Below are positions 14,790-26,503 of a stretch of 64,000 nt of DNA, piece after piece. The notes beneath the pieces are model-generated. The model saw only the letters and a list, made by a program, of their open reading frames with translations. It made no database searches and was not told where the DNA came from. The stretch covers positions 2,257,501-2,321,500 of the forward strand of contig NZ_CP039650.1 of NCBI RefSeq assembly GCF_004923315.1, written 5' to 3'. The translations under genes and the position numbers were made by a program. This DNA comes from Azospirillum sp. TSA2s. GTDB lineage: Bacteria; Pseudomonadota; Alphaproteobacteria; Azospirillales; Azospirillaceae. The number at the start of each line of letters is the position of its first letter. The stretch's first letter is position 1.

Positions 14790-15230
14790 ATGGTTCAATA
14801 CATCGGTCCCGATCCGCTCCGCAGCCTGCACGAGGCCGTGCAAACCCTGCGGCGCGAGCCTTCCTCCGTCCCTGAAGCCTCGCGCACGGCAAAGCTGCTG
14901 GCGCAGGGCCGAGCCCGCATGGCACGGAAGGTGGGGGAGGAGGCGATCGAGGTGGCGATTGAGGCGATGCGCGGCGACCGCGGCGCACTGGTGATGGAGG
15001 CGGCCGACCTCTTGTATAATCTGGTCGTGCTGTTGGCCGACTTCGACATCGCCCCCGACGAGATCCTGGCTGAACTGCGGCGGCGCGAACTGGCTTTCGG
15101 CATCGCGGAAAAGCTTCCAAAATCCGAAGAACCGCCGAACGGTCCTGCAAGTTCCCCGGCCAATGGCTCCGCCGACGGTGTGGCGTCCAATGGCCAGAAG
15201 CCGGGTTCCGCAAAACGCTGCAAACGCTAA
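14790..15230 (+). CDS. phosphoribosyl-ATP pyrophosphohydrolase-like protein (HisE/MazG superfamily)
   Basis: The central part (about residues 35-105) matches HisE: TAKLLAQGRARMARKVGEEA with the metal-binding EExxE, then MEAADLLYNLVVLLADFDI and a final helix ILAELRRRE. HisE performs the second step of histidine synthesis by hydrolysing phosphoribosyl-ATP. A 40-residue tail rich in Pro, Ser and Asn follows, unusual for HisE. No his gene lies nearby, so this may be a second copy or a related house-cleaning pyrophosphatase. Start chosen at the ATG at 14790; a TTG at 14769 is also in frame and neither has a clear ribosome binding site. The stop overlaps the convergent kinase gene by four bases. 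Confidence 0.72.
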   Translation: MVQYIGPDPLRSLHEAVQTLRREPSSVPEASRTAKLLAQGRARMARKVGEEAIEVAIEAMRGDRGALVMEAADLLYNLVVLLADFDIAPDEILAELRRRELAFGIAEKLPKSEEPPNGPASSPANGSADGVASNGQKPGSAKRCKR

Positions 15231-16993
15231 ACGGCGTCGCTCTCCTGGGGGAAGACCAGATCGAACCGTGTGCCGGCTCCCCTGGTGAAATGATACTCGC
15301 CGCGTATTTGCCGGGCGAAGGCCCGGATCAGGTCCATGCCCATCGACCGCCGTCCGGGGGTGGAGGGATCCTCCGGCTCCGGGGCGCCGGTGCCGTCGTC
15401 CTGGATCGTCAGATGCAGCGATCCGTTCTCGGCCGTCACCACGATGTCGATGGTGCCGGTACAGCGGCCGGTGAAGGCGTGCTTGAAGGCGTTCGACACC
15501 ACTTCATTCAGGATCAGGGCGAAGGGCACCACCCGGTTGAGGTCGAGGCTGAGCGGTTCCACCCGATGCCTGATGGTGATGGTCCTGCCCGGGCGGCTGT
15601 GGAAGCTGTTCAAATGGCCGGCCAGCGCTTCGATGAAGCTGTCGAGCGCGACCGCCGATACGCCGGTGGCGCGGTAGATCTGCTCGTGGATCAGTCCCAT
15701 CGTGTTGATGCGGGTCAGCGCCTCGCTGAAGGGCGCCTCCAGTTCCGGCGCGCGCTGCGCCTGAAGTTCCAGCAGACTGAGGATCACCTGCAGATTGTTC
15801 TTCACCCGGTGATGGATGTCGCGCAGCAACACCTCCTTGTCGGCCAAGGCCTGGTCGAGGTGCCGGGTGCGTTCTGTGATCCGGTCCTCCAGCGCCTCGT
15901 TTGAGCGGCGCAATGCCTCCTGCGCCTCGGCGGCCTGACGCGAGCGGTGCAGCGCGATGCCGCCCAGCAGGACAAGCAATCCCAGTGCCGGGGTCGAGAA
16001 CAGTGCGTAAGGCATCACCCGGTCGCGCCAAGCCCTTTCGATGGAGCCGACGTCGGTGCCGTAGACCACATAGATCGGCAGGTCGGGTACCTTGCGGCGG
16101 GCCATCAGCCGCTCGACCCCGTCGGAGGGCGTCACCGCGCGGAAAACGCCGTTCCTGTCGGGGATCGAGATCAGTTCCGGCAAGCGCCCGATGTCGGTGC
16201 GGTCGGCTGAGGCGTTCTGCGGGGTACGGACCAGCACCTCGCCATCTTCGCGCATCAGCAGGATGACGTCGCTCGACCCTCGCAGGACCGAACGGTAGAA
16301 GTCGGCGAAATAGCTGGGCAGGAGTGAGATCTGCGCCACCCCCTGGAACTGGTGGTTCGACAGTTCCATCCGGCGGCTGAGGGTGAAGAAAATCTCGGAG
16401 TTGATCTTGCCCGTCAGCCGCGGGCCGATGTGGATGGCGCTGCCGGGGTTCAGAAGAGCGCGGAAATATTCGCGGTCGCTCGCGTTCAGCGGGCGCATCG
16501 GCCATTCGAAGCTGCTGACGCGGACGCGTCCGCTCTCGTCGGTGATCCAATAGGACTGCACCTCCGGCGTCTGGGCCGCCATGGCTTTCAGGCGTTCGTG
16601 CAGCAGGGGAGAACTGTCGATCCGGTCCCATCCCAGGTCATCGACCATCCATTCCATGTGCGACAGGGTGGCGGCATGGATGCCGAGCGTCTTGGCTGCA
16701 TGCTCCTCCAGTACGCGCGCGATCGCGGCGCTGCGGGTCTCCGCCTCGTCGATCACCTGGCTGCGGTATTGATAGGCCGCAAACACCAGCAGGGCGGCCG
16801 TAAGGGCGAGGGCCACCGCCAGCAGCGCCAGAATTGCCGGTGAAGCGGCCTTGCGTCCACCGCGGATGGTGCCCGGGGGTCCTGCGGCATGTGCATCCTG
16901 TTCGAAGCCGGCAGGGGTCATCGGGGGGAGGTCGTCCGTTTGCGGAGGGGTATGGCAGGGCTCAAGAATAGCGCAAAGGTCAACGCCCGTCAC
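15227..16993 (-). CDS. membrane sensor histidine kinase, HisKA_2/HWE type
   Basis: A 588-residue kinase: a hydrophobic helix (about residues 52-73), an extracytoplasmic Cache-like sensor (about 75-325, with LNASDREYFRALLNPGSAIH), a second membrane helix (about 328-348), a short coiled linker, then the phosphoacceptor DIHHRVKNNLQVILSLLELQ near residue 392 and a C-terminal ATPase domain (NEVVSNAFKHAF, DDGTG, GMDLI). Such kinases signal through unlinked response regulators and often sense small organic ligands. The listed GTG start is weakly supported; an ATG at 16921 (MTPAGFEQD) would also keep all domains. Confidence 0.85.
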   Translation of the reverse strand: MTGVDLCAILEPCHTPPQTDDLPPMTPAGFEQDAHAAGPPGTIRGGRKAASPAILALLAVALALTAALLVFAAYQYRSQVIDEAETRSAAIARVLEEHAAKTLGIHAATLSHMEWMVDDLGWDRIDSSPLLHERLKAMAAQTPEVQSYWITDESGRVRVSSFEWPMRPLNASDREYFRALLNPGSAIHIGPRLTGKINSEIFFTLSRRMELSNHQFQGVAQISLLPSYFADFYRSVLRGSSDVILLMREDGEVLVRTPQNASADRTDIGRLPELISIPDRNGVFRAVTPSDGVERLMARRKVPDLPIYVVYGTDVGSIERAWRDRVMPYALFSTPALGLLVLLGGIALHRSRQAAEAQEALRRSNEALEDRITERTRHLDQALADKEVLLRDIHHRVKNNLQVILSLLELQAQRAPELEAPFSEALTRINTMGLIHEQIYRATGVSAVALDSFIEALAGHLNSFHSRPGRTITIRHRVEPLSLDLNRVVPFALILNEVVSNAFKHAFTGRCTGTIDIVVTAENGSLHLTIQDDGTGAPEPEDPSTPGRRSMGMDLIRAFARQIRGEYHFTRGAGTRFDLVFPQESDAV

Positions 16994-17393
16994 TCAACAA
17001 CCATGTCGCGATAAAACTGCATACAAATTCTCTGGATGATCGACATCTTCCGTATCGCTTCGATCCTGGGCGTCGATCGACGGCCCGAATTCGATGCCCC
17101 TGAAAATGAGCATCCCGGTGAATCGAAAAGGCGAGAATGCCATGGCGGCACCGGCCGGGCAGGGACGCTGTGGTCGTCGACGTTTTGCACCCTTACTTTC
17201 CGGATACTGCGCTATGCACTGTCGTAATAAATCATTGCACAACATTGGCTCTGCCGTACATGACTCTTCGTTCATATGCGACAAATTGAAACGAATGCTG
17301 GCAATCCGCCTTATCGGTCTTGGAAGCTTCACCGTACGGTGGTTCCATTGCAGCAGGCATAGGCGATCACGCATAGTGTGACGGGGGCGGCGG
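16994..17393. other. intergenic region between two divergent sensor kinases
   Basis: A 400-base divergent control region, less GC-rich than its flanks. A weak plus-strand promoter candidate is TTGCAG (17348-17353) and CATAGT (17372-17377) with an 18-base spacer, ending 17 bases before the hybrid kinase ATG; the imperfect dyad TCAC-N7-GTGA overlaps its -10. Short ORFs here lack ribosome binding sites and recognisable features. Confidence 0.35.
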
Positions 17394-19163
17394 ATGGCGG
17401 GGATGGACGGGGGGCTGGACGACGAACTGCTGTTCGGCCCGGAGGACGGCGCCGCGACGGTGGCAAGTTCTCAACGGCCGTCCGGTACGCCCTGGCCCGT
17501 CCTGGTGGTGGACGACGATCCCCAGGTTCACGCCATGACCGCGGTGCTGCTGCGCGACTTCGACTTCGACGGACGCCCGTTCGAGGTGGTGAGCGCCCTG
17601 TCGGCGGAAGAGGCGAAGGCGGTCCTCGCCCAGCGGCCCGACCTGCCCATCGCCCTCCTCGACGTGGTGATGGAGACGGAGGATGCCGGCCTGAAGCTGG
17701 TCCGCCACATCAGGGAGGAATTGGGCAACCGCCGCATGCGGATCATCCTGCGCACCGGCCAGCCGGGTCAGGCGCCGGAGCGGGACGTCATCGTCGGCTA
17801 CGACATCAACGACTACAAGGCCAAGAGCGAGCTGACCGCGCAGCGTCTGTTCACCACGCTGGTCAGCGGGCTGCGCGCCTGGCGCGACATCGTGACGATC
17901 GAGCGCAACAGGCAGGGGCTGGAACGGATTCTCAGCGCCTCCGCCCCGCTGTTCGAGATGCGGCCGATGCGCGCCTTCGTCGAACGGCTGGTGGAGCAGA
18001 TCGCCCGCGTCGTCGATCACGGCAGCACGCCGGCGGTTCTGGCCTGCCGTCCGGTCGACCGCGCCGACGGCAGCCGGACGGTCGCCGTGGTGGCGGGATT
18101 GGGGGTCTTTTCCGGCTGCATCGGGCTGCCGGTGGCAGATGTCCTGTCGAACGGCGCGGCGGCGGAAGTGGCGGACGCCCTGCTGACCCAGCGCAACCTC
18201 TATCACGACGGCCATTGCGTCCTGGTCTTCCGCACGCGCGAGCATGGCGTGACCGTCTTCTGGCTTGAACGGGCGGAGCCCTACACCGCGGACGAGCACC
18301 GCCTGCTGGAGCTGTTCTGCAACCGTGTCGCCATCGGCTTCGACAACGTCTGCCTGTATGAGGAGCTGGTGGCGCTGAACCACTCGCTGGAGCAGCGGGT
18401 GGAGGAGCGCACGCTGGAACTGGCCGCCAATCAGAAGGCGCTGATCCTAGCCAAGGAACGGGTGGAGCGGGCGCTGGAGCGCGAACTGCTCGCCCGCGAC
18501 CGGCAGCGCCAGTTCCTGGGCATGGTCAGCCACGAATTCCGCACGCCGCTCGCCATCATCGACAGCGCGGCGCAGCTGCTGGCGATGCGGGCCGGGCAGG
18601 TGGAGCCGGAGATGCTGGAACGGCTGGCGGTGATCCGGAGCAGCGTGCAGCGTCTGACCGGCCTGATCGACGCCCATCTGACCGACGAGCGGCTGCAGAC
18701 CAACGCCCTTGTGCCGGAGCGGGCCGAGGTCGACTTGGCCGACCTGATCGCCAATGTCGTCCGGCCTTTCCGCGTCGCCTATCCCGACCGTGAATTCCAG
18801 ATGACCCTGGCCGGTTTGCCGCGGCGGGCGGAGGTCGACGCCAACCTGATCGCCCTGGTCCTGACCAATCTCGTCAACAACGCCGTCAAATATTCCGGTC
18901 CGGGCGAAGCGATCCATCTTCACGGCGATACCGACGGCGCCATGGCGGTGATCGAGGTGACCGACCATGGCCGCGGCATTCCCGAACCGGAGCTTCCCCG
19001 CCTGTTCGACCGCTTCTTCCGCGGGTCGGGCGCGTCCGGCGTGCCGGGCACCGGCATCGGTCTGCACACGGTGCAGCAGATCGTTCATCTGCATGGCGGC
19101 GCCGTCGCGGTCGACAGCACGCTGGGAAAGGGATCGACCTTCCGGGTCGTGCTTCCCGTGTGA
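17394..19163 (+). CDS. REC-DUF3369-histidine kinase hybrid
   Basis: A cytoplasmic 589-residue protein with no membrane segment. Residues 35-160 form a receiver domain (VLVVDDD, phospho-acceptor Asp90 in ALLDVVM). A DUF3369 GAF-like region spans about 165-325, a coiled coil about 330-375 (LEQRVEERTLELAANQKALI), a HisKA domain with His380 in VSHEFRTPLA, and an ATPase domain (NLVNNAVKYS, DHGRGIP, GTGIGL). It can thus receive a phosphate and also pass one on. It lies upstream of the siaB/siaC-like genes on the same strand with 102 bases between, partly filled by a hairpin. Partners are not evident from sequence. Confidence 0.88.
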   Translation: MAGMDGGLDDELLFGPEDGAATVASSQRPSGTPWPVLVVDDDPQVHAMTAVLLRDFDFDGRPFEVVSALSAEEAKAVLAQRPDLPIALLDVVMETEDAGLKLVRHIREELGNRRMRIILRTGQPGQAPERDVIVGYDINDYKAKSELTAQRLFTTLVSGLRAWRDIVTIERNRQGLERILSASAPLFEMRPMRAFVERLVEQIARVVDHGSTPAVLACRPVDRADGSRTVAVVAGLGVFSGCIGLPVADVLSNGAAAEVADALLTQRNLYHDGHCVLVFRTREHGVTVFWLERAEPYTADEHRLLELFCNRVAIGFDNVCLYEELVALNHSLEQRVEERTLELAANQKALILAKERVERALERELLARDRQRQFLGMVSHEFRTPLAIIDSAAQLLAMRAGQVEPEMLERLAVIRSSVQRLTGLIDAHLTDERLQTNALVPERAEVDLADLIANVVRPFRVAYPDREFQMTLAGLPRRAEVDANLIALVLTNLVNNAVKYSGPGEAIHLHGDTDGAMAVIEVTDHGRGIPEPELPRLFDRFFRGSGASGVPGTGIGLHTVQQIVHLHGGAVAVDSTLGKGSTFRVVLPV

Positions 19164-19191
19164 TGCAGCCTGATGTCGCGCCTGCCCGAAA

Positions 19192-19226
19192 GACTATGGC
19201 CCTTTTCCAAGGGAAATGACATAGTC
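19192..19226 (+). repeat. hairpin between the hybrid kinase and siaB-like gene
   Basis: GACTATG (19192-19198) pairs with CATAGTC (19220-19226), and inside it CCCTT (19200-19204) pairs with AAGGG (19209-19213) around a TTCC loop. No T run follows, so it is more likely an RNA-stability, attenuation or operator element than a strong terminator. Confidence 0.55.
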
Positions 19227-19265
19227 GGCTAACTCCCGGCACCTGTGGAACCTCAGGCCACAACC

Positions 19266-19817
19266 ATGCTCGCTCAACAATATGCGTCGATTAAACGCGA
19301 TCTCGACGAGCGGGGGATCGTGTTCTCTTTCAGCGGATACTTGTCGGAAGGGATACTTTATTCCCTCGGCGAAGCACTGCGTGAGAAAATGGCGCTGGAG
19401 GAGGCCGATGGCCCCACCATCCGCCGCGTCTTCTCGGTCTTCGTCGAGCAGATGCAGAACATCATCCGCTATTCCGCGGAAAAGATGTCGGGCAGCGCCG
19501 GCCGCGCGGTGGAACTCAGTGCCGGCATGGTCACCATCGGGATGGAGGGCGGCAAGGTCTTCATCGTCTGCGGCAACACCGTGCGCAACAGCGAGGTTCC
19601 TCGCCTGAAGGAGCGGCTGGACCATCTGAAGAGTCTGGATCGCGACGGCATCAAGACCTATTACCGCGAACAGCTTCGAGAGGAGCCGGACGACGGCAGC
19701 CGTGGCGCGACCTTGGGGCTGATCGAGATCGCACGGCGGGCCAGCGACCCCATCGACTATGATTTCGATGCGATGGACGCGGACCGCAGCTTCTTCTGCC
19801 TCAAGGTCCGCGTGTGA
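19266..19817 (+). CDS. siaB: SiaB-like protein kinase
   Basis: The 183-residue protein resembles SiaB, the kinase that phosphorylates SiaC in the Pseudomonas aeruginosa SiaABCD pathway: the N-terminal DERGIVFSFSGYLSEGILYS segment, the FVEQMQNIIRYSAE helix corresponding to the N-box region of anti-sigma-like kinases, and GATLGLIEIARRASDP near the C terminus are family features. It directly precedes the siaC-like gene. A GTG at 19245 would add seven residues; the ATG at 19266 has AGG upstream and starts where family members usually start. Assigned by family pattern and context, not by measured activity. Confidence 0.78.
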   Translation: MLAQQYASIKRDLDERGIVFSFSGYLSEGILYSLGEALREKMALEEADGPTIRRVFSVFVEQMQNIIRYSAEKMSGSAGRAVELSAGMVTIGMEGGKVFIVCGNTVRNSEVPRLKERLDHLKSLDRDGIKTYYREQLREEPDDGSRGATLGLIEIARRASDPIDYDFDAMDADRSFFCLKVRV

Positions 19818-19840
19818 GCGGCCGAACCGAGCGATACGAC

Positions 19841-20239
19841 ATGGACAGCCTGATCATCCCCGCCACCGGACGCACGCCGGGCGTCTCCTTCGATTTCTCC
19901 GTCGGCCATTTACGCATGACCGGAGAATCGTACCCGGACGACGTCGCCGGTTTCTTCGGTCCGGTGTTCAACGCATTGCGCGGCTTTCTCGACCGTCCGG
20001 ACGGCGGCGCCATCCGCTTCGACATGGAGCTTCTCTATTTCAACAGCTCCAGCGCCAAGGCGCTGATGAACATCTTCCAGATGCTGGAGACGGTGGCCCG
20101 GGGCGGGCGGCCGGTGACGGTGACCTGGTGCGTCGAGGAGAATGACGAATCGATGCGCGAACTCGGCGAGGACTTTGCCGAGGATTTGCGGCATGTCGTC
20201 TTCCAGATGCGGGAGTTGCCCGCCGGCGGGGCTCCGTGA
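19841..20239 (+). CDS. siaC: SiaC-like regulatory phosphoprotein (DUF1987)
   Basis: A 132-residue DUF1987 protein: IIPATGRTPGVSFDFSVGHL at the start, GESYPDDVAGFFGPVF, and the conserved loop YFNSSSAKALMNIFQMLE (residues 66-83). In P. aeruginosa SiaC, a threonine in this loop is phosphorylated by SiaB and dephosphorylated by SiaA, and the unmodified form activates the diguanylate cyclase SiaD. Here the loop reads NSSS, with serine at residue 69 at or next to the expected site. A GTG at 19814 overlapping the siaB stop (GTGA) is an alternative start. The stop overlaps the following kinase gene by four bases. Confidence 0.82.
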   Translation: MDSLIIPATGRTPGVSFDFSVGHLRMTGESYPDDVAGFFGPVFNALRGFLDRPDGGAIRFDMELLYFNSSSAKALMNIFQMLETVARGGRPVTVTWCVEENDESMRELGEDFAEDLRHVVFQMRELPAGGAP

Positions 20240-21285
20240 GCTTCAACCTCTTCGCCGCGGAGGAGGAGGCGCTCGCCAAGGCCCGCACGCTGGAGACGAG
20301 GCTGGGCGCGCTGGCGCCCGATTGCCTGCCGGAGTTCCGCGACCTGATCGCCGCCTTCGAACTCAGCACGCGGGAGCAGCAGTGCCTCGTGCGGGTCAGC
20401 GACCGGCTGCAGGCCCAGTTGAGCGACGCCAACCACGAGTTGGAGCGGCGGCGCAGCGAGGCGGAGGCGGCGCTGGACAGGCTGCGCGAGGCGCAGGAGG
20501 CGATGATCCGGTCGGAAAAGCTGGCCTCCCTCGGTGCGCTGGTCGCCGGTGTGGCCCACGAGATCAACACGCCGGTCGGCATCGCCGTTTCCTGCGCCTC
20601 GCATCTGGCCGACGCCACCCTGGTGATGCGCCGGCGGGCCGCCGAAGGCGAGCTTGGCAAGGCGGAGTTCGCCCGCTATCTCGCCACCGCGACCGACACC
20701 ACCGACCTGATCCTCGGCAACTGCGAACGGGCGGCGCAGTTGATCGCCGGCTTCAAGCAGGTTGCGGTCGACCGTGCCAGTGCCGAACGGCGCCGTGTCA
20801 ACCTCGCCGCCTACATCCGGGACACGCTGGTCAGCCTGCAGCCGAAGCTGCGGCCATCGGGCCATGCGGTCGCGGTGAACTGCCCGGCCGACCTGGAACT
20901 GGACAGCTATCCCGGCGTGCTGTCGCAGATCCTGTCCAATCTGGTGATGAACGCGCTGACCCATGCGTTCGCCGACGGACGGGCAGGGGACATGACGATC
21001 ACGGTCGACTGTCCCGATCCCGACACCGTCCGCCTGTGCTTCACCGACAATGGGCGCGGCATGATCGAGGAGCATCGCGCCAGGGTGTTCGAGCCCTTCT
21101 TCACCACCCGGCGCGGTCGCGGCGGCAGCGGGCTGGGGTTGCACATCGTCCACAATCTGGTGGTCGGTGCGCTGATGGGTTCGATCACCGTGGACAGCGC
21201 GCCGGATCGCGGCACCAGCTTCACCCTGCTGTTCCCCCGCCGCACGCCTAATCGGGCGTCGCCGGGCCAGGGTTTTCCGGACTGA
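20236..21285 (+). CDS. soluble histidine kinase linked to SiaC
   Basis: A 349-residue kinase without membrane segments. Residues 1-90 are helical with a coiled coil (HELERRRSEAEAALDRLREA). The phosphoacceptor is His108 in GVAHEINTPVG, followed by a DHp helix pair and an ATPase domain (NLVMNALTHAF, DNGRGM, FEPFFTTRRG, GSGLGLHIVHNLV). It starts with GTG overlapping the siaC stop (GTGA), so the two are translationally coupled. It occupies the place of siaD in Pseudomonas, which suggests that unphosphorylated SiaC controls this kinase; that is inference. Its 3' end meets the OmpR-type regulator gene with one base between stops. Confidence 0.86.
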   Translation: MSFNLFAAEEEALAKARTLETRLGALAPDCLPEFRDLIAAFELSTREQQCLVRVSDRLQAQLSDANHELERRRSEAEAALDRLREAQEAMIRSEKLASLGALVAGVAHEINTPVGIAVSCASHLADATLVMRRRAAEGELGKAEFARYLATATDTTDLILGNCERAAQLIAGFKQVAVDRASAERRRVNLAAYIRDTLVSLQPKLRPSGHAVAVNCPADLELDSYPGVLSQILSNLVMNALTHAFADGRAGDMTITVDCPDPDTVRLCFTDNGRGMIEEHRARVFEPFFTTRRGRGGSGLGLHIVHNLVVGALMGSITVDSAPDRGTSFTLLFPRRTPNRASPGQGFPD

Positions 21286-21286
21286 C

Positions 21287-22045
21287 TCACCCCTGCGCGG
21301 CGCCCACCACCCGGATCGGCGCGGAGAAGACATAGCCGACCCCGTGCACCGACTTGAGCGGGGCCGGGCCGCCGATGGCGCCCTCCACCTTGTGGCGCAG
21401 GCGCCCGACGACGGTGTCGATGGAGCGGTCTTCCGGGTTCCAGCGGCGGTTGTAGAGCGCCTGCGAGATCTGGTCGCGCGTCGCCGGCTTGCGGGCCTGT
21501 GCGGCCAGCAGGCTGGTCAGCTTCATCTCCATGCTGGTCAGGCTGATGCGGATTCCGGCTGGGTTGGTCAGGCTCCATTCCGTGGGGTCCAGCGACCAGC
21601 GCGCCTCGTCGGCAGAATCGCCGGCCTCGCCGCCTGCGGTCCCGTTGGCGGCCTGGATCGCCGTTTCCGCGGCGCGCTCGCTCAGGCGGCGCAGCAGCGA
21701 TTTCACCTGCGCTTCCAGTTCGCGAAGCTCGACCGGCTTCACCAGATAGGCGTCGGCGCCGATCTCCAGCCCGACCACGCGGTCGACGGTGGAACTGCGG
21801 GCGGTCACCATGATGATGCCGGCGCCATGGCTGTCGCGCAGCCGGGCCGCGATCTTGAACCCGTCCTCGTCCGGCAGGTTCACGTCCAGGATGATGATGG
21901 CGGCGTTGCGGTTCCGCAGCAGCCGGTCCAGTTCCGCCCCATCGCGTGCGCCGATTGCATCGAATCCGCAGCTCGACAGATACTCGACCATGTCGGACCG
22001 CAGGGAATTCTCATCTTCGACCACGACGATCGTCGGACCTGCCAT
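21287..22045 (-). CDS. OmpR-family response regulator
   Basis: A 252-residue regulator: receiver domain (VVVEDE at residues 7-12, phospho-acceptor Asp54 in IILDVNLPDEDGF, Lys103 in YLVKPVE), an acidic linker (about 128-150), and a winged-helix DNA-binding domain (TSMEMKLTSLLA, RSIDTVVGRLRHKVE, SVHGVGYVF). GGGGAG lies six bases before the ATG. It is convergent with the SiaC-linked kinase and downstream of the siaA-like gene, so it is a natural partner for that kinase. Phased direct repeats about 100-140 bases upstream may be its own binding site. Confidence 0.9.
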   Translation of the reverse strand: MAGPTIVVVEDENSLRSDMVEYLSSCGFDAIGARDGAELDRLLRNRNAAIIILDVNLPDEDGFKIAARLRDSHGAGIIMVTARSSTVDRVVGLEIGADAYLVKPVELRELEAQVKSLLRRLSERAAETAIQAANGTAGGEAGDSADEARWSLDPTEWSLTNPAGIRISLTSMEMKLTSLLAAQARKPATRDQISQALYNRRWNPEDRSIDTVVGRLRHKVEGAIGGPAPLKSVHGVGYVFSAPIRVVGAAQG

Positions 22046-22146
22046 GCCGTGCTCTCCCCAATCACCACTTCAGCGGGTGCAGCATACCCTAGGATGCCTA
22101 AATTTTGAAAGAAACTCGGCAGGCTTCTGCCGTTCGCGACGGGTTG

Positions 22147-22186
22147 CCGTCACAACCTGTCACAAAAAATAGCATCTCTGTAACAG
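22147..22186 (-). promoter_or_regulatory. helically phased direct repeats upstream of the OmpR-type regulator
   Basis: GTCACAA occurs at 22149-22155 and again at 22159-22165 (10-base period), and a related GTAACA lies at 22180-22185, 21 bases from the second. All three face the same side of the helix, the pattern expected of OmpR-family sites. The region lies between the siaA stop and the regulator start. Confidence 0.45.
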
Positions 22187-22208
22187 ATTTGAGGGGGGGT
22201 CAGGAGTT

Positions 22209-23807
22209 TTACGCAGCGTAGCGGCTGGATCCGGCGCCGGAAACGGCGGCTGCGTCGGTCAGCCGCACGCGGAAGCCGAACAGGGTGATGTCGTCCCGCT
22301 GCTCGCGGTTGCCCTGGAACCGCTCCAACGAGCTTTCCAGCTCGGACTTCAGCCGGTCGAGCGGTCCGTCGCCGCCCTGGCTCAGCAGCTGGCGCAGCCT
22401 GCTCCGGCCGAAACCGCGCCCATGCTCACCGCCATTCTGATCCACCAGCCCATCGGTGCCGATGAGGAAGGTCTGGCCGGGGCGCAGTGCGATGCTGTGG
22501 TTGGTGAAGGGCGAATCGGAAGTACCTGGGGCAGCGCCCGGGGCGTCTTCGGGGACCGGCCCGCTCGCGGTGGGGCGATAGCCCAGGCTCAGGCGATCGC
22601 CGCGCAGCTCCGTCACCTCGCCGCCGGTCACCATCAGCAGCGGAACGCGGGCGCCGGCGAAGACCAGCCGTCCTTCGGCCGGACGGATGTGGCACAGCCC
22701 CAGGTCAAGACCATTGTCGAAGCAGTCCATCCCGCTGCGCGCCTTCCCCTCCTGGTGCAGGGCGGCGCGGACCATGCGGTCGACCGCGGCCAGCACCGCC
22801 GCCGGATCGTCCGCACCCATCTGGTCCAGCGCATTGTTCAGCATCGCGCTGGCGGTCATCGTCATGAAGGCGCCGGGCACGCCATGGCCGGTGCAGTCGG
22901 CCACCGCGACCACGAAGCCGTCCGCCACCTCGCGGCAGACATAGAAATCGCCGCTGACCACATCGCGCGGGCGCCACAGCACGAAATGCTCGGTCAGCCC
23001 GGCCGACAGCGCATCGGCCGACGGCAGGATGGCGGACTGGATCAGTTGGGCGTAGTTGATGCTGTCCATGATGGCGCGGTTGGTGGCGGCCAGCGCCTCC
23101 GTCCGTTCGCGGACCCGGCATTCCAGGGTGCTGGTATGGTCCTGCACCGTCGCCGCCATCCGGTTGAAGCCGTCGGCCAGCACGCCGATCTCGTCGCTCC
23201 GCCCGGCATCCATGCGGGCGCCGTAATCACCGCGCGCCATGGCGCTGGCCAACTGGGTCAGCCGCCGCAGCGGCCGCAGCACCATGCGGTTCAGCGTCAG
23301 CCCCAGCGCCGCCATCGCACCCAGCAGTGACAGCAGCAACAGCCCGGCCACCGGAGCCAGCGCGTTCAACGTCGCCTGCCGCACTTCGGCCGTCGAATAG
23401 ACGATGCGCAGATGCCCGACCGTCTGCACCCGTCCCTCGCGCCCATGCAGGACGATGGGGCGCTCGACCGTGATTCGACCGGCGCCGTCCCCGATGTCTC
23501 CCGACGAGGTGCGTGCCAGCGGTTCCTCGCGGTCGCTCTCGAAGACGGCGATGGAGCGGATGGCCGGATCGCGGACGGTCAGCGCCTCGATCATGCGCTC
23601 GGCGCTGCGGTTGTCGAGTTCCCACACCGGGCCGCTCAGCGCGTCGGCCTGGGTGGCGGCGACCAGTTCCGCCCGGTGCAGCAGATCCTGGTGGCGCTGC
23701 CCCTCGACGATCTGCTCGGACAGCAGCATGGCGGCGGCACCGATGCTCGCCGTCGTCAGCAGGATGGCCCCGGCCACCCGCGCCAGCAGGGAGGATCGCC
23801 GCCTCAC
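22209..23807 (-). CDS. siaA: SiaA-like HAMP-PP2C protein phosphatase
   Basis: A membrane protein of about 532 residues: a signal-anchor helix (about 8-30), a periplasmic segment (about 30-135), a second membrane helix (about 145-168), a HAMP domain (about 170-222, with VLRPLRRLTQLASAMARGDY), a coiled coil and a SpoIIE/PP2C phosphatase domain (RDVVSGDFY, VAVADCTGHGVPGAFMTM, GTDGLVDQNG with metal-binding aspartates). This architecture is that of SiaA, which removes the phosphate from SiaC. The GTG at 23807 overlaps the upstream stop (GTGA); an in-frame GTG at 23831 would overlap further. It is coupled to a solute-binding protein gene and may receive its signal through it. Confidence 0.84.
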   Translation of the reverse strand: MRRRSSLLARVAGAILLTTASIGAAAMLLSEQIVEGQRHQDLLHRAELVAATQADALSGPVWELDNRSAERMIEALTVRDPAIRSIAVFESDREEPLARTSSGDIGDGAGRITVERPIVLHGREGRVQTVGHLRIVYSTAEVRQATLNALAPVAGLLLLSLLGAMAALGLTLNRMVLRPLRRLTQLASAMARGDYGARMDAGRSDEIGVLADGFNRMAATVQDHTSTLECRVRERTEALAATNRAIMDSINYAQLIQSAILPSADALSAGLTEHFVLWRPRDVVSGDFYVCREVADGFVVAVADCTGHGVPGAFMTMTASAMLNNALDQMGADDPAAVLAAVDRMVRAALHQEGKARSGMDCFDNGLDLGLCHIRPAEGRLVFAGARVPLLMVTGGEVTELRGDRLSLGYRPTASGPVPEDAPGAAPGTSDSPFTNHSIALRPGQTFLIGTDGLVDQNGGEHGRGFGRSRLRQLLSQGGDGPLDRLKSELESSLERFQGNREQRDDITLFGFRVRLTDAAAVSGAGSSRYAA

Positions 23808-24592
23808 GCGATGATTCCGCTGCGCCGCCACAGGGTCTCCAGCCGTCCGTCCGCCTCCAGCCGGTCCAGCAGCGCATCGAGCCAGCCGGCGGTGATCTTG
23901 CGGTCGCGCCGCGTCAGGATGGTGTGCTCGTAAATCTGGTCGGTGCGCTCGGACACCAGGACCTGCCGGGCCAGGTCCGGCTCGCGCTGCAGGAAGCGGG
24001 TCAGGAAGGAGCGGGTGACGATGGCGAGGTCGGCCCGACCGGCGACGACGCTGCGGACATTGCCCTCATGCGTTACCGTGACACGGGTGTGATGGCGCTG
24101 TTCCAGCCGCTTGGGATCGGCCTCGAAGTCAGCGAAGGCGTAGTGATAGCCCAGCCGCCCGAGGATCGACTTGCCGCTCAGGTCGTCGAAATAATGCTGG
24201 TCTATTCCCGGCGCTGCCCTGGCGACGAACACCTCCGCATCGCGAAGGAAAGAGCGGGAGGCATCGACCGGACGATCCTGCCAGCCCCAGTTGCGGCACT
24301 CAAAGGCGATCATGTCGAACCGCCCCTGTTCCAGATCGTCATAGCGCCGCTGCGGAGCGGTCCTCACCATGTCGAACCGGAATTCATCCTGCGCGGCGTT
24401 GAACAGGTCCAGCAGGTCGCGCGTGACGCCGCCGCCCGATTCGTCGACATAGGGCGGAAATTCGTAGGCGCCGACTCGGATGACGGTGGGGGTCTGGTGC
24501 GCCGCCGCCGGCCGGGAGACCAGGAAGGGCAGGGCGGAAAGAAGAGGCAGCGCGGTCCTTAAAACCCTGCGGCGGGATAGCGGCCCCGTCAT
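23804..24592 (-). CDS. periplasmic solute-binding protein (SBP_bac_3-like)
   Basis: A 262-residue exported protein. The N terminus (LSRRRVLRTALPLLSALPFL, then AAAH) resembles a Tat signal peptide with a twin-arginine motif. The mature part is a type 3 amino-acid-binding fold: IRVGAYEFPPYVDESGGGVT, DMIAFECRNWGWQDRPVDAS and GRADLAIVTRSF. No ABC permease or ATPase gene is adjacent; instead the stop overlaps the start of the siaA-like phosphatase by four bases. A role as a ligand-sensing partner of SiaA rather than in transport is likely but inferred. GGAGAGG precedes the ATG. Confidence 0.8.
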   Translation of the reverse strand: MTGPLSRRRVLRTALPLLSALPFLVSRPAAAHQTPTVIRVGAYEFPPYVDESGGGVTRDLLDLFNAAQDEFRFDMVRTAPQRRYDDLEQGRFDMIAFECRNWGWQDRPVDASRSFLRDAEVFVARAAPGIDQHYFDDLSGKSILGRLGYHYAFADFEADPKRLEQRHHTRVTVTHEGNVRSVVAGRADLAIVTRSFLTRFLQREPDLARQVLVSERTDQIYEHTILTRRDRKITAGWLDALLDRLEADGRLETLWRRSGIIA

Positions 24593-24721
24593 CGCGCCCC
24601 TCTCCTGTAACCCCTATTCGCGTAAGGGTCAGTCTACCCCCGTATGCACCCATGCCGCAATGCGGGACATTCCCCTATCAGGGCAGCACCCCGGATAGTG
24701 CCAGACTGTCCATGCCCATCC

Positions 24722-26503
24722 TCAGGCCGCCTCGGTGGCGCGCTCCTGCTCGCGGTCGGCCAGTTCGGCGATCTCGTGGCCGCTCAGGGTCTCACGCTCC
24801 AGCAGGGCCTGTGCGATCCCGTCCAGTGCGTCGCGGTTGGTGCGCAGCAGGCGGCGGGCATGCTCCATGCCTTCGTCGGTGAGGCGGCGAACCTCCTCGT
24901 CGATGCGCCAGGCCGTCCGTTCCGACCGCGCACCCGGTTCCGCCGCCGCATGGGCGACAAAGCCGATCTCCTCGCTCATGCCCCAGGCGGTGACCATGCG
25001 GCGGGCCAGATCGGTGGCGGCGCGGAAGTCGGCCTCGGCCCCGGTGGTGACGTGTTCGGGACCGAAAGCCATCTCCTCCGCCGCGCGGCCGGCCATGGCG
25101 ACGGCGATGTCGGCCATCAGCTTGGCGCGCGAAACCGAGACCCGGTCGCCCTCCGGCAGCCGCACCACCATGCCCAGCGCGCCGCCGCGCGGGATGATGG
25201 TGGCCTTGTGGATCGGGTCGGCCTGCGGGCAGCGCAAGGACACCAGCGCGTGGCCGGCTTCATGCACCGCGATCAGCCGCCGCTCGTGCGCCGTCAGGGC
25301 GAGGCTGCGGCGTTCCGTTCCCATCAGCACGCGGTCCTTGGCGGCTTCATAGTCCGCCATGGTGACGACGACGCGGCCCTGGCGCGCCGCCGACAGCGCC
25401 GCCTCGTTGGTGAGGTTGGCGAGTTCCGCGCCGGAGAAGCCCGGCGTGCCGCGCGCCACGGTCCGCGCGCAGACGTCGGGGGCCAGCGTCAAACGGCCGG
25501 CATGGACGCCCAGGATGGCTTCCCGCCCCGCCACGTCGGGCAGGCTGACATGGATGTGGCGGTCGAAGCGGCCGGGGCGCAGCACGGCGGGGTCCAGCAT
25601 CTCCGACCGGTTGGTGGCGGCGATCACCACCACCTCGCCACCTTCGACGATGCCGTCCATCTCCACCAGAAGCTGGTTCAGCGTCTGCTCGCGCTCGGAA
25701 TGGCTGGTCGATTCGCCGCGCTTGCCGGCCAGCGCGTCGATCTCGTCGATGAACAGGATGCAGGGGGCATTGGCGCGGGCGGTCTTGAACAGGCTGCGCA
25801 CGCGCGCCGCGCCCAGACCGACGAACATCTCGACGAAATCCGACCCCGACGCGGCGAAGAACGGCACGCCGGCCTCGCCCGCCGCCGCCTTCGCCAGCAT
25901 GGTCTTGCCGGTGCCGGGCGGACCGACCAGCAGGATGCCCTTCGGCACGCGGGCGCCAGCCATGGCGAAGCGGCGCGGGTCCTTCAGGAACTGCACCGTC
26001 TCGCGCAGCTCCTCCTTCGCCTCGTCGACGCCGGCCACGTCGGCGAACACCGTGTTGGTGTCCTCCGGCCGCACGCGGGTGGCACGGCCCATGCCGAAGA
26101 ACTGCCCGCCGCTCATCAGCAGCCCGCCGATCAGCAGGGCCACCACCACGAAGGGCGCGGCGCGGTCCAGCACGCCCACCGTCTGCGCCATCAGCCCGCC
26201 GGGCCCCTCTTCGAAGGAGATGGCGACCGAGTGGGCGCGCATTTCCTTCAGCAGATCGTCGGTGACCGGCATGACCACGCGGTAGCGGCTGCCGTCGGCG
26301 GCGACCGCATGACCGGTGCCGTTGGCGAAGGTGATGGAGCTGATCTCCCCACGGCCCGCCTGCTCGATCAGCGCGCTGTAGGTGGCCGGCCGCTCGTCCG
26401 CCCGCTGGTGGTGATCGTACCAGGCGGCGAAACCGAGCCACGCGGCGAGCAGGGCGGCCAGGACGGCAAGTGCGATCAACGGGCGTTTCGGCAGCGTGGG
26501 CAT
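24722..26503 (-). CDS. FtsH-like AAA zinc protease
   Basis: A 593-residue membrane protease with two N-terminal membrane helices (about 8-27 and 116-134) around a short periplasmic domain, an AAA module (Walker A GPPGTGKT at 194-201, Walker B ILFIDEID at 249-256, pore loop FVEMFVG, arginine-finger region [19 protein letters not shown]) and a zinc protease with HEAGH at 414-418. FtsH degrades membrane and regulatory proteins. It is shorter than canonical FtsH, lacks the neighbours (tilS, folP) usual for the housekeeping gene, and is probably a second copy. GGAG lies six bases before the ATG. Confidence 0.88.

Follow-up and report, generated by a model that had tools for sequence, protein, structure and literature searches.

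A SiaABC-type partner switch with a probable histidine kinase output in Azospirillum sp. TSA2s

Introduction

What does a SiaC phosphoprotein act upon when its locus holds no diguanylate cyclase? The question is raised by positions 17,394 to 24,592 of a 64,000-nucleotide stretch of the Azospirillum sp. TSA2s genome (contig NZ_CP039650.1, positions 2,257,501 to 2,321,500 of the forward strand), hereafter called the window. In Pseudomonas aeruginosa, the diguanylate cyclase SiaD is activated by unphosphorylated SiaC, according to PMC8457831. In the window, the genes of a SiaB-like kinase, a SiaC protein and a SiaA-like phosphatase stand beside that of a soluble histidine kinase, and a preliminary description of this DNA suggested that SiaC feeds a two-component system there. 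We report that this histidine kinase carries at its N-terminus a homologue of the SiaD stalk. We propose, with a probability of about 0.77, that the locus is a SiaABC partner switch with a histidine kinase output, in which SiaC would clamp the kinase stalk and phosphate would pass to the REC domain of a neighbouring hybrid kinase and then to an OmpR regulator.

Results

The kinase gene (20236..21285, plus strand) shares a 4-bp GTGA overlap with siaC. Pfam found only HATPase_c (2e-25) and HATPase_c_2 in its product, which has no sensor domain, and the H-box, HEINTP, was read from the sequence. We refer to histidine kinases of this window type as HKa; 33 HKa loci were counted, the window and the locus numbered L125 among them. 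The H-box and the HATPase_c boxes are intact, and H108, N239, D271, G273, G275, G297, G299 and G301 are invariant in 20 aligned sequences including that of the window. No GGDEF domain was found by Pfam in the nine proteins scanned from 15227 to 26503, and no second stalk-bearing open reading frame was found at E < 1e-3 in the 33 HKa regions; a hidden GGDEF protein at the window locus was thus rejected.

The first ~78 residues of HKa are homologous to the SiaD stalk bound by SiaC. This predicted SiaC-binding-type stalk (residues 2-78; 20239..20469, plus strand) was tested with profiles free of histidine kinase sequences, and a held-out hidden Markov model matched the window HKa at 2.6e-13. Only one of the 45 training stalks (L105) came from Azospirillum, and none of the 37 of profile A2; as the training segments were excised by regular expression, divergent stalks are absent from the profiles. 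When the non-kinase stalk profile, built from other genera, was run against the whole 8.1-Mb source genome (G000), three matches only were obtained at E < 0.1. The window HKa was the best (9.4e-15), followed by the histidine kinase and the GGDEF protein of a second SiaABC locus. The [LIVM]SDRx[QE] motif that marks the N-terminal stalk is present in the window HKa within the core LVRVSDRLQ (residues 51-59; 20386..20412, plus strand), of which every position except 52 is invariant in 20 Azospirillum histidine kinases. Alignment with the SiaD of 7e6g places S55 on SiaD S82 and Q59 on SiaD Q86. Among the 13 SiaD residues named as contacting SiaC in PMC8457831, six are identical in the window HKa, the key S82 and Q86 included. 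A chance similarity between coiled coils was rejected on the basis of the held-out profile, of shuffles and of the whole-genome specificity. A PDB search with the HKa N-terminus did not retrieve SiaD.

We then compared kinases sharing the catalytic core of HKa with and without the stalk. Across the order to which G079 belongs (248 genomes, with at most eight candidates scored in each), the window kinase profile matched at full length in 31 places and over the core only in many more, the core being fused there to other N-termini. Twenty of the 31 full-length matches (flanks up to 6 kb) and 20 chosen among the core-only matches (flanks up to 3.5 kb) were examined. Both siaB and siaC precede the kinase gene, in its own orientation, in 20/20 stalk-bearing loci, whereas siaB, siaC or a stalk occurs in 0/20 stalkless ones. 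The siaC gene directly adjoins the kinase gene in 19 of the 20 stalk-bearing loci; in the exception, L364, the gene of a stalk-bearing class III cyclase separates the two. Weak matches to the siaA model in seven stalkless loci (1e-6 to 1e-12, six of them on the kinase frame) were read as not SiaA. A contig search returned 28 loci, mostly from Azospirillum. Across the 33 HKa loci, siaA is found in 31, the gene of a periplasmic-type protein in 27, and the gene order is retained in most.

An AlphaFold2 model of HKa (mean predicted local distance difference test, pLDDT, 80.5) shows a single helix from residue 28 to 136 that bears both S55 and H108, and a Foldseek search with this model gave kinases or kinase cores among the matches listed. 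The distance from the motif serine to the output domain was measured across stalk proteins and mostly steps by seven. In GGDEF proteins the spacings are 21, 28, 35, 42 and 49, with 41/46 rows at 0 mod 7 and the remainder at 10, 10, 45, 45 and 53; departures from 7n include L192 and L193 (45) and L189 (53). HPK1-type histidine kinases have spacings of 23, 37 and 44, all 20 rows (19 genes) being 2 mod 7, and class III cyclases have 52, 59 or 66 in 8/8 measured. A wider cyclase set (16 rows) gave mixed spacings, owing partly to mis-picked motifs and partly to a second subfamily at 63. The HKa spacing is 53 in 33/33 loci; among 20 loci of other families it is 53 in 19, L364 having 46, one heptad less (the values of L364, L356 and L362, the latter two at 53, were counted by eye on segments). 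These counts are to be read with the knowledge that the regular expressions mis-pick some motifs (those of L149, of L190 and of several cyclase rows), that six proteins are omitted, that L136 = L280, L186 = L271, L217 = L123 and L218 = L121 are duplicates, and that many copies are close kin, so that the weight rests on few independent lengths.

SiaC, SiaB and close SiaA matches each occur twice in the source genome and fall into two loci. The second one, on contig 7, has the order siaA-siaB-siaC-histidine kinase-GGDEF, together with the gene of a 281-residue periplasmic-type protein without a Pfam match and a divergent OmpR regulator gene. Its histidine kinase and GGDEF genes stand in tandem and both bear the stalk (L084:4263-5983, minus strand), and such a pair occurs in 15/15 Azospirillum loci of this type that were fetched. 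In such loci one SiaC may possibly serve two outputs. The contig 7 kinase is of a different (HEFRTP) type. It was considered as the closest relative of the kinase core of the hybrid encoded in the window and rejected as such, since it ranks second, with 41% identity after 43%. L364, on the minus strand and from another family, represents a second kind of double-output locus, where the genes after siaB-siaC encode first a class III cyclase with the stalk (its FFSD motif recognised by eye and by script) and then a stalk-bearing histidine kinase. A REC-GGDEF gene follows the histidine kinase gene in 4/20 loci of related families (3/4 confirmed by Pfam).

PF09345 (SiaC, formerly DUF1987) is present in 34/61 genomes of the source and its relatives, in 14/386 of the class and in 59/397 of the phylum, the class and phylum counts each including one match below the cut-off. 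The gene following SiaC was classed in 127 loci, namely 120 fetched regions, six named loci (L216-L221) and the window; L217 and L218 duplicate L123 and L121, and five SiaC matches from the samples of the class and the phylum are omitted (G449:C25 and G580:C30, besides those in G530, G479 and G199, which are partial or weak). A script picked the effector among open frames whose start lies between -30 and +130 bases relative to the stop of SiaC, taking a motif-bearing frame first and otherwise the longest, which biases the choice toward motif-bearing frames. It picked 50 histidine kinases, 35 GGDEF proteins (two duplicate loci included), 15 HD-GYP proteins and 10 class III cyclases, and 17 loci gave no usable neighbour (four SiaB, four PP2C and nine none). 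The 50 kinases comprise 33 of the window type, 15 of the contig 7 type and two others. Pfam, run on 82 of the 127 loci (79 outside the genus plus L105, L108 and the window), found GGDEF in 35, HD_5 in 15, Guanylate_cyc in 10 and HATPase_c in five. In one Azospirillum locus (L105:3800-10606, minus strand), the gene after SiaC encodes a class III nucleotide cyclase with the stalk, not a kinase, and the adjoining open reading frame looks transposase-like by eye.

From SiaC-bearing genomes, 20 more stalk genes that do not directly follow SiaC were fetched: seven PP2C, six HD-GYP, five cyclases and two hybrid histidine kinases (one PP2C and both hybrids confirmed by Pfam). The regions of L271 and L280 also contain SiaC, and part of the remaining regions are on short contigs, where the distance to SiaC is uncertain. 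The stalk-bearing PP2C proteins, of the SpoIIE type (L263, L264, L266, L272, L273, L274 and L276, of which L266 is the one confirmed), have no SiaC in the fetched regions; feedback or cascades of partner switches are possible. In the phylum sample of 397 genomes, with at most 14 candidates scored per genome, the stalk and SiaC occur together in 52, the stalk only in two, SiaC only in seven and neither in 336. This table is partly circular, A2 being derived from SiaC neighbours in the same sample; the own-genome test and the stalkless-kinase test are not affected. One of the two genomes with a stalk and no SiaC shows a 33-residue frame with a stop, and the other is an 88%-complete assembly of about 390 contigs.

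The remaining gene content given in the preliminary description was borne out. The SiaB-family Ser/Thr kinase (19266..19817, plus strand) matches the family model NF038262 (3e-62, 209 bits, cut-off 85), PF19788 and chain A of the SiaB structure 6kko (8e-20). SiaC (19841..20239, plus strand) scores 129 bits against PF09345 (cut-off 24.5) and matches SiaC in 6kko and 7e6g (5e-23). The SiaA-like membrane phosphatase (HAMP-SpoIIE by Pfam; 22209..23807, minus strand) matches the P. aeruginosa SiaA phosphatase structure 6k4e (6e-62), with its active-site motifs retained in an alignment read by eye. As the NCBIfam equivalog cut-offs were not reached (108 of 225 bits for SiaB with NF038264, 93 of 150 for SiaC and 345 of 700 for SiaA with NF038263), the three are family members and not P. 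aeruginosa orthologues. The source strain is close to A. oryzae, the SiaC proteins of the two being 96% identical. The window SiaC retains the Y65, N67, S/T68, S69 and D114 positions, and its predicted phosphosite is the serine at the T68 position (FNSSS). The 110 SiaC proteins whose effector was classed all have Y65 and N67 and all carry Ser or Thr at position 68, and 103 of them have Asp at position 114.

The gene of a periplasmic binding-protein-like product (23804..24592, minus strand) overlaps siaA by 4 bp (GTGA) and is a candidate signal input; its Pfam matches to Phosphonate-bd and SBP_bac_3 are weak (27.8 bits against 27 and 23.5 against 26.4). The N-terminal part of SiaA (22209-23831, minus strand) matches models of a YfiR-associated kinase and of DgcN/YfiN far below their cut-offs, perhaps through HAMP alone; if real, this match would hint at a periplasmic partner and would fit the coupled gene.

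Two candidate phosphate acceptors are encoded at the locus. One is the REC-DUF3369-HisKA-HATPase_c hybrid kinase upstream of siaB (17394..19163, plus strand; DUF3369 7e-39, HATPase_c 1.5e-26), and the other is the convergent OmpR-family regulator (Response_reg and Trans_reg_C by Pfam; 21287..22045, minus strand), whose gene is tail to tail with that of the kinase. The hybrid is found in 32/33 HKa loci, window included, and the OmpR regulator in 31/33, L108 having neither. REC proteins related to the first 330 residues of the hybrid occur near 19/20 stalk-bearing and 8/20 stalkless kinases. Assigned mostly by motif, the outputs of the former are 13 kinases, four GGDEF and two unclear, and those of the latter three GGDEF, three HD-GYP and two that are perhaps EAL by motif. 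In L125, which belongs to another family, the histidine kinase gene overlaps a REC-DUF3369-HK-REC gene by 4 bp (HK, histidine kinase). Because no neighbour accompanies this kinase core more steadily than a REC-bearing protein, with or without SiaC, and because of the L125 overlap, the REC domain of the hybrid is the likeliest candidate for direct phosphotransfer, the OmpR regulator coming next. The nearest paralogue of the window regulator in the genome is the regulator of the second SiaABC locus (51%, 7e-70; the next being 39%, 2.6e-42, in the window-to-genome direction), and the OmpR regulator is for this reason, on sequence grounds, also tied to the SiaABC-kinase system.

Discussion

The stalk detected on the histidine kinase by profiles free of kinases and its association with siaBC within one kinase-core family (20/20 against 0/20) support the earlier suggestion of a two-component system fed by SiaC. 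At this locus, Ser/Thr partner switching is probably wired straight into His-Asp signalling. We infer the following course. SiaB would phosphorylate SiaC on the serine at the T68 position, and membrane-bound SiaA would dephosphorylate it, perhaps when signalled by the periplasmic protein whose gene is coupled to its own. In its unphosphorylated form, SiaC would then clamp the kinase dimer by the coiled-coil stalk at its N-terminus, at RVSDRLQ, as it does with SiaD, and clamping would alter the kinase state through the helix that runs into the phospho-His helix. The first acceptor of the phosphate would be the REC domain of the neighbouring hybrid, and the OmpR regulator would be phosphorylated either directly or via the hybrid. 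By analogy with SiaD, it is more likely that unphosphorylated SiaC switches the kinase on.

Several observations weigh against this proposal. Seven of the 13 SiaD contacts are not identical in the window HKa (R74 to Glu, K77 to Cys, Y85 to Leu, M88 to Gln, R90 to Ser, V78 to Leu and I81 to Val), and over the 20-residue stretch around the motif only 7/20 residues match SiaD. The Cys at the K77 position (Cys50; 20383-20385) is Arg in the other Azospirillum HKa copies listed, and HKa shows one stalk motif where SiaD has two. The window SiaC has Ser in place of R103 and Gln in place of D79. In the HKa model, pLDDT falls to about 54 at residues 91-110, between the motif and the histidine, and the predicted template modelling score is 0.58. 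The REC domain of the hybrid scores 27.7 bits, just below the Pfam cut-off of 30.2, and the four proteins scanned out of the 19 near stalk-bearing kinases (L347, L351, L352 and L355) have the REC domain without DUF3369. In loci of other families, siaA lies within the fetched region in 3/20 only. Finally, whether SiaC favours the kinase or the phosphatase activity is not readable from the sequence.

The preliminary description noted the OmpR regulator as convergent with the kinase. The regulator is tied to the system, but it is probably neither the sole target nor the first one, the REC-bearing protein being more constant. It is tentatively conceivable that SiaC does bind the stalk and that the regulator is nonetheless the main partner, the hybrid forming a parallel branch. 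The regulator accompanies the kinase in 16/20 other-family loci as well as in 31/33 HKa loci, and its nearest paralogue belongs to the second SiaABC locus. Yet the REC protein is slightly more constant (32/33 and 19/20) and also stands beside 8/20 stalkless relatives of the kinase, without a match to the OmpR regulator within the fetched region in any of them. Moreover, the second locus pairs a similar regulator with a HEFRTP kinase; as this kinase ranks second among the paralogues of the core of the hybrid, the regulator may belong with that type of core. A different sign of control, with SiaC as an anti-kinase and SiaB activity rather than SiaA turning the output on, appears improbable to us, as SiaD, the one relative with biochemistry in the literature consulted, is activated (PMC8457831). 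A coiled-coil clamp could, however, lock either state. We give hardly any credence to a chance neighbourhood, in which an ordinary two-component kinase with a generic coiled coil, a common feature of histidine kinases, would merely lie beside siaBC with its limited match to SiaD around the motif, in view of the specificity of the stalk profile within the genome, the 20/20 against 0/20 distribution, the order retained in most of the 33 loci, the shuffles and the finding of a stalk without SiaC in only 2/397 genomes, one of them the interrupted frame.

The proposed SiaC-controlled kinase can be compared with CheA, a two-component kinase without a sensor that is driven by a partner protein. Like CheA-like kinases, HKa has no sensor of its own and would be controlled by another protein; here, however, the proposed controller is a Ser/Thr-phosphorylated SiaC docking on a SiaD-type stalk. 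As far as PMC8457831 and PMC7647112 go, the locus resembles P. aeruginosa SiaABCD in its SiaA-type PP2C, its SiaB-type kinase, the N-(S/T)-S phosphosite region of SiaC and an SDRxQ-stalk effector encoded beside SiaC, and it probably works like it. It differs in that the effector is a histidine kinase and not a diguanylate cyclase, in that siaA is read from the other strand and is coupled to the gene of a periplasmic-type protein, and in the REC hybrid and OmpR regulator. SiaA-, SiaB- and SiaC-type proteins are found, the stalk sitting on the histidine kinase instead of a GGDEF protein, and because the defining diguanylate cyclase is absent the locus is not a SiaABCD system. In HsbA-HsbD and BgrV-BgrR, as presented in PMC8457831, a STAS-like phosphoprotein likewise governs a signalling enzyme, but the controller is a STAS domain, not SiaC, and the outputs are diguanylate cyclases.

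In the literature that we searched, mostly without subscription papers, we met neither a histidine kinase as a target of SiaC nor a paper treating DUF1987 together with one, and relative to it the histidine kinase output is a new form of SiaABCD partner switching. In the consulted text of PMC12834913, PMC9756655 and PMC7278518, a kinase is likewise not described as a target of SiaC; PMC9239204, in the section consulted, describes the merging of PP2C, Ser/Thr/Tyr kinase (STYK) and STAS modules with c-di-GMP enzymes and does not mention SiaC on a kinase. DUF1987 was named in one paper only in these searches. The general suggestion that DUF1987 proteins modulate adjacent proteins, made in PMC8457831, becomes testable.

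A two-component output does not always shut out c-di-GMP at such loci, given the stalk-bearing kinase and GGDEF protein of the second locus and the REC-GGDEF genes in 4/20 loci. In the accessible literature, SiaC has so far been studied as the activator of one P. aeruginosa c-di-GMP enzyme, and we find its type of stalk on kinases, cyclases, hydrolases and phosphatases. We consider it rather likely that SiaC and the stalk form a general, detachable, phospho-controlled clamp, joined by coiled coils in heptad phase to five or more output classes, namely diguanylate cyclases, HD-GYP phosphodiesterases, class III nucleotide cyclases, several kinds of histidine kinase and PP2C phosphatases. A single SiaC could then govern two of them together, the SiaABC-kinase-GGDEF locus of this genome and the SiaBC-cyclase-kinase locus L364 being examples. 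A clamp of this sort would explain the control of a kinase without a sensor domain and connect Ser/Thr partner switching directly, in a way open to test, with a His-Asp phosphorelay, and a short motif would predict SiaC targets across genomes. Directly upstream of the hybrid, a dCache kinase of the HisKA_2/HWE type is encoded (15227-16993, minus strand), which was matched in 8/32 other HKa loci within the fetched flanks.

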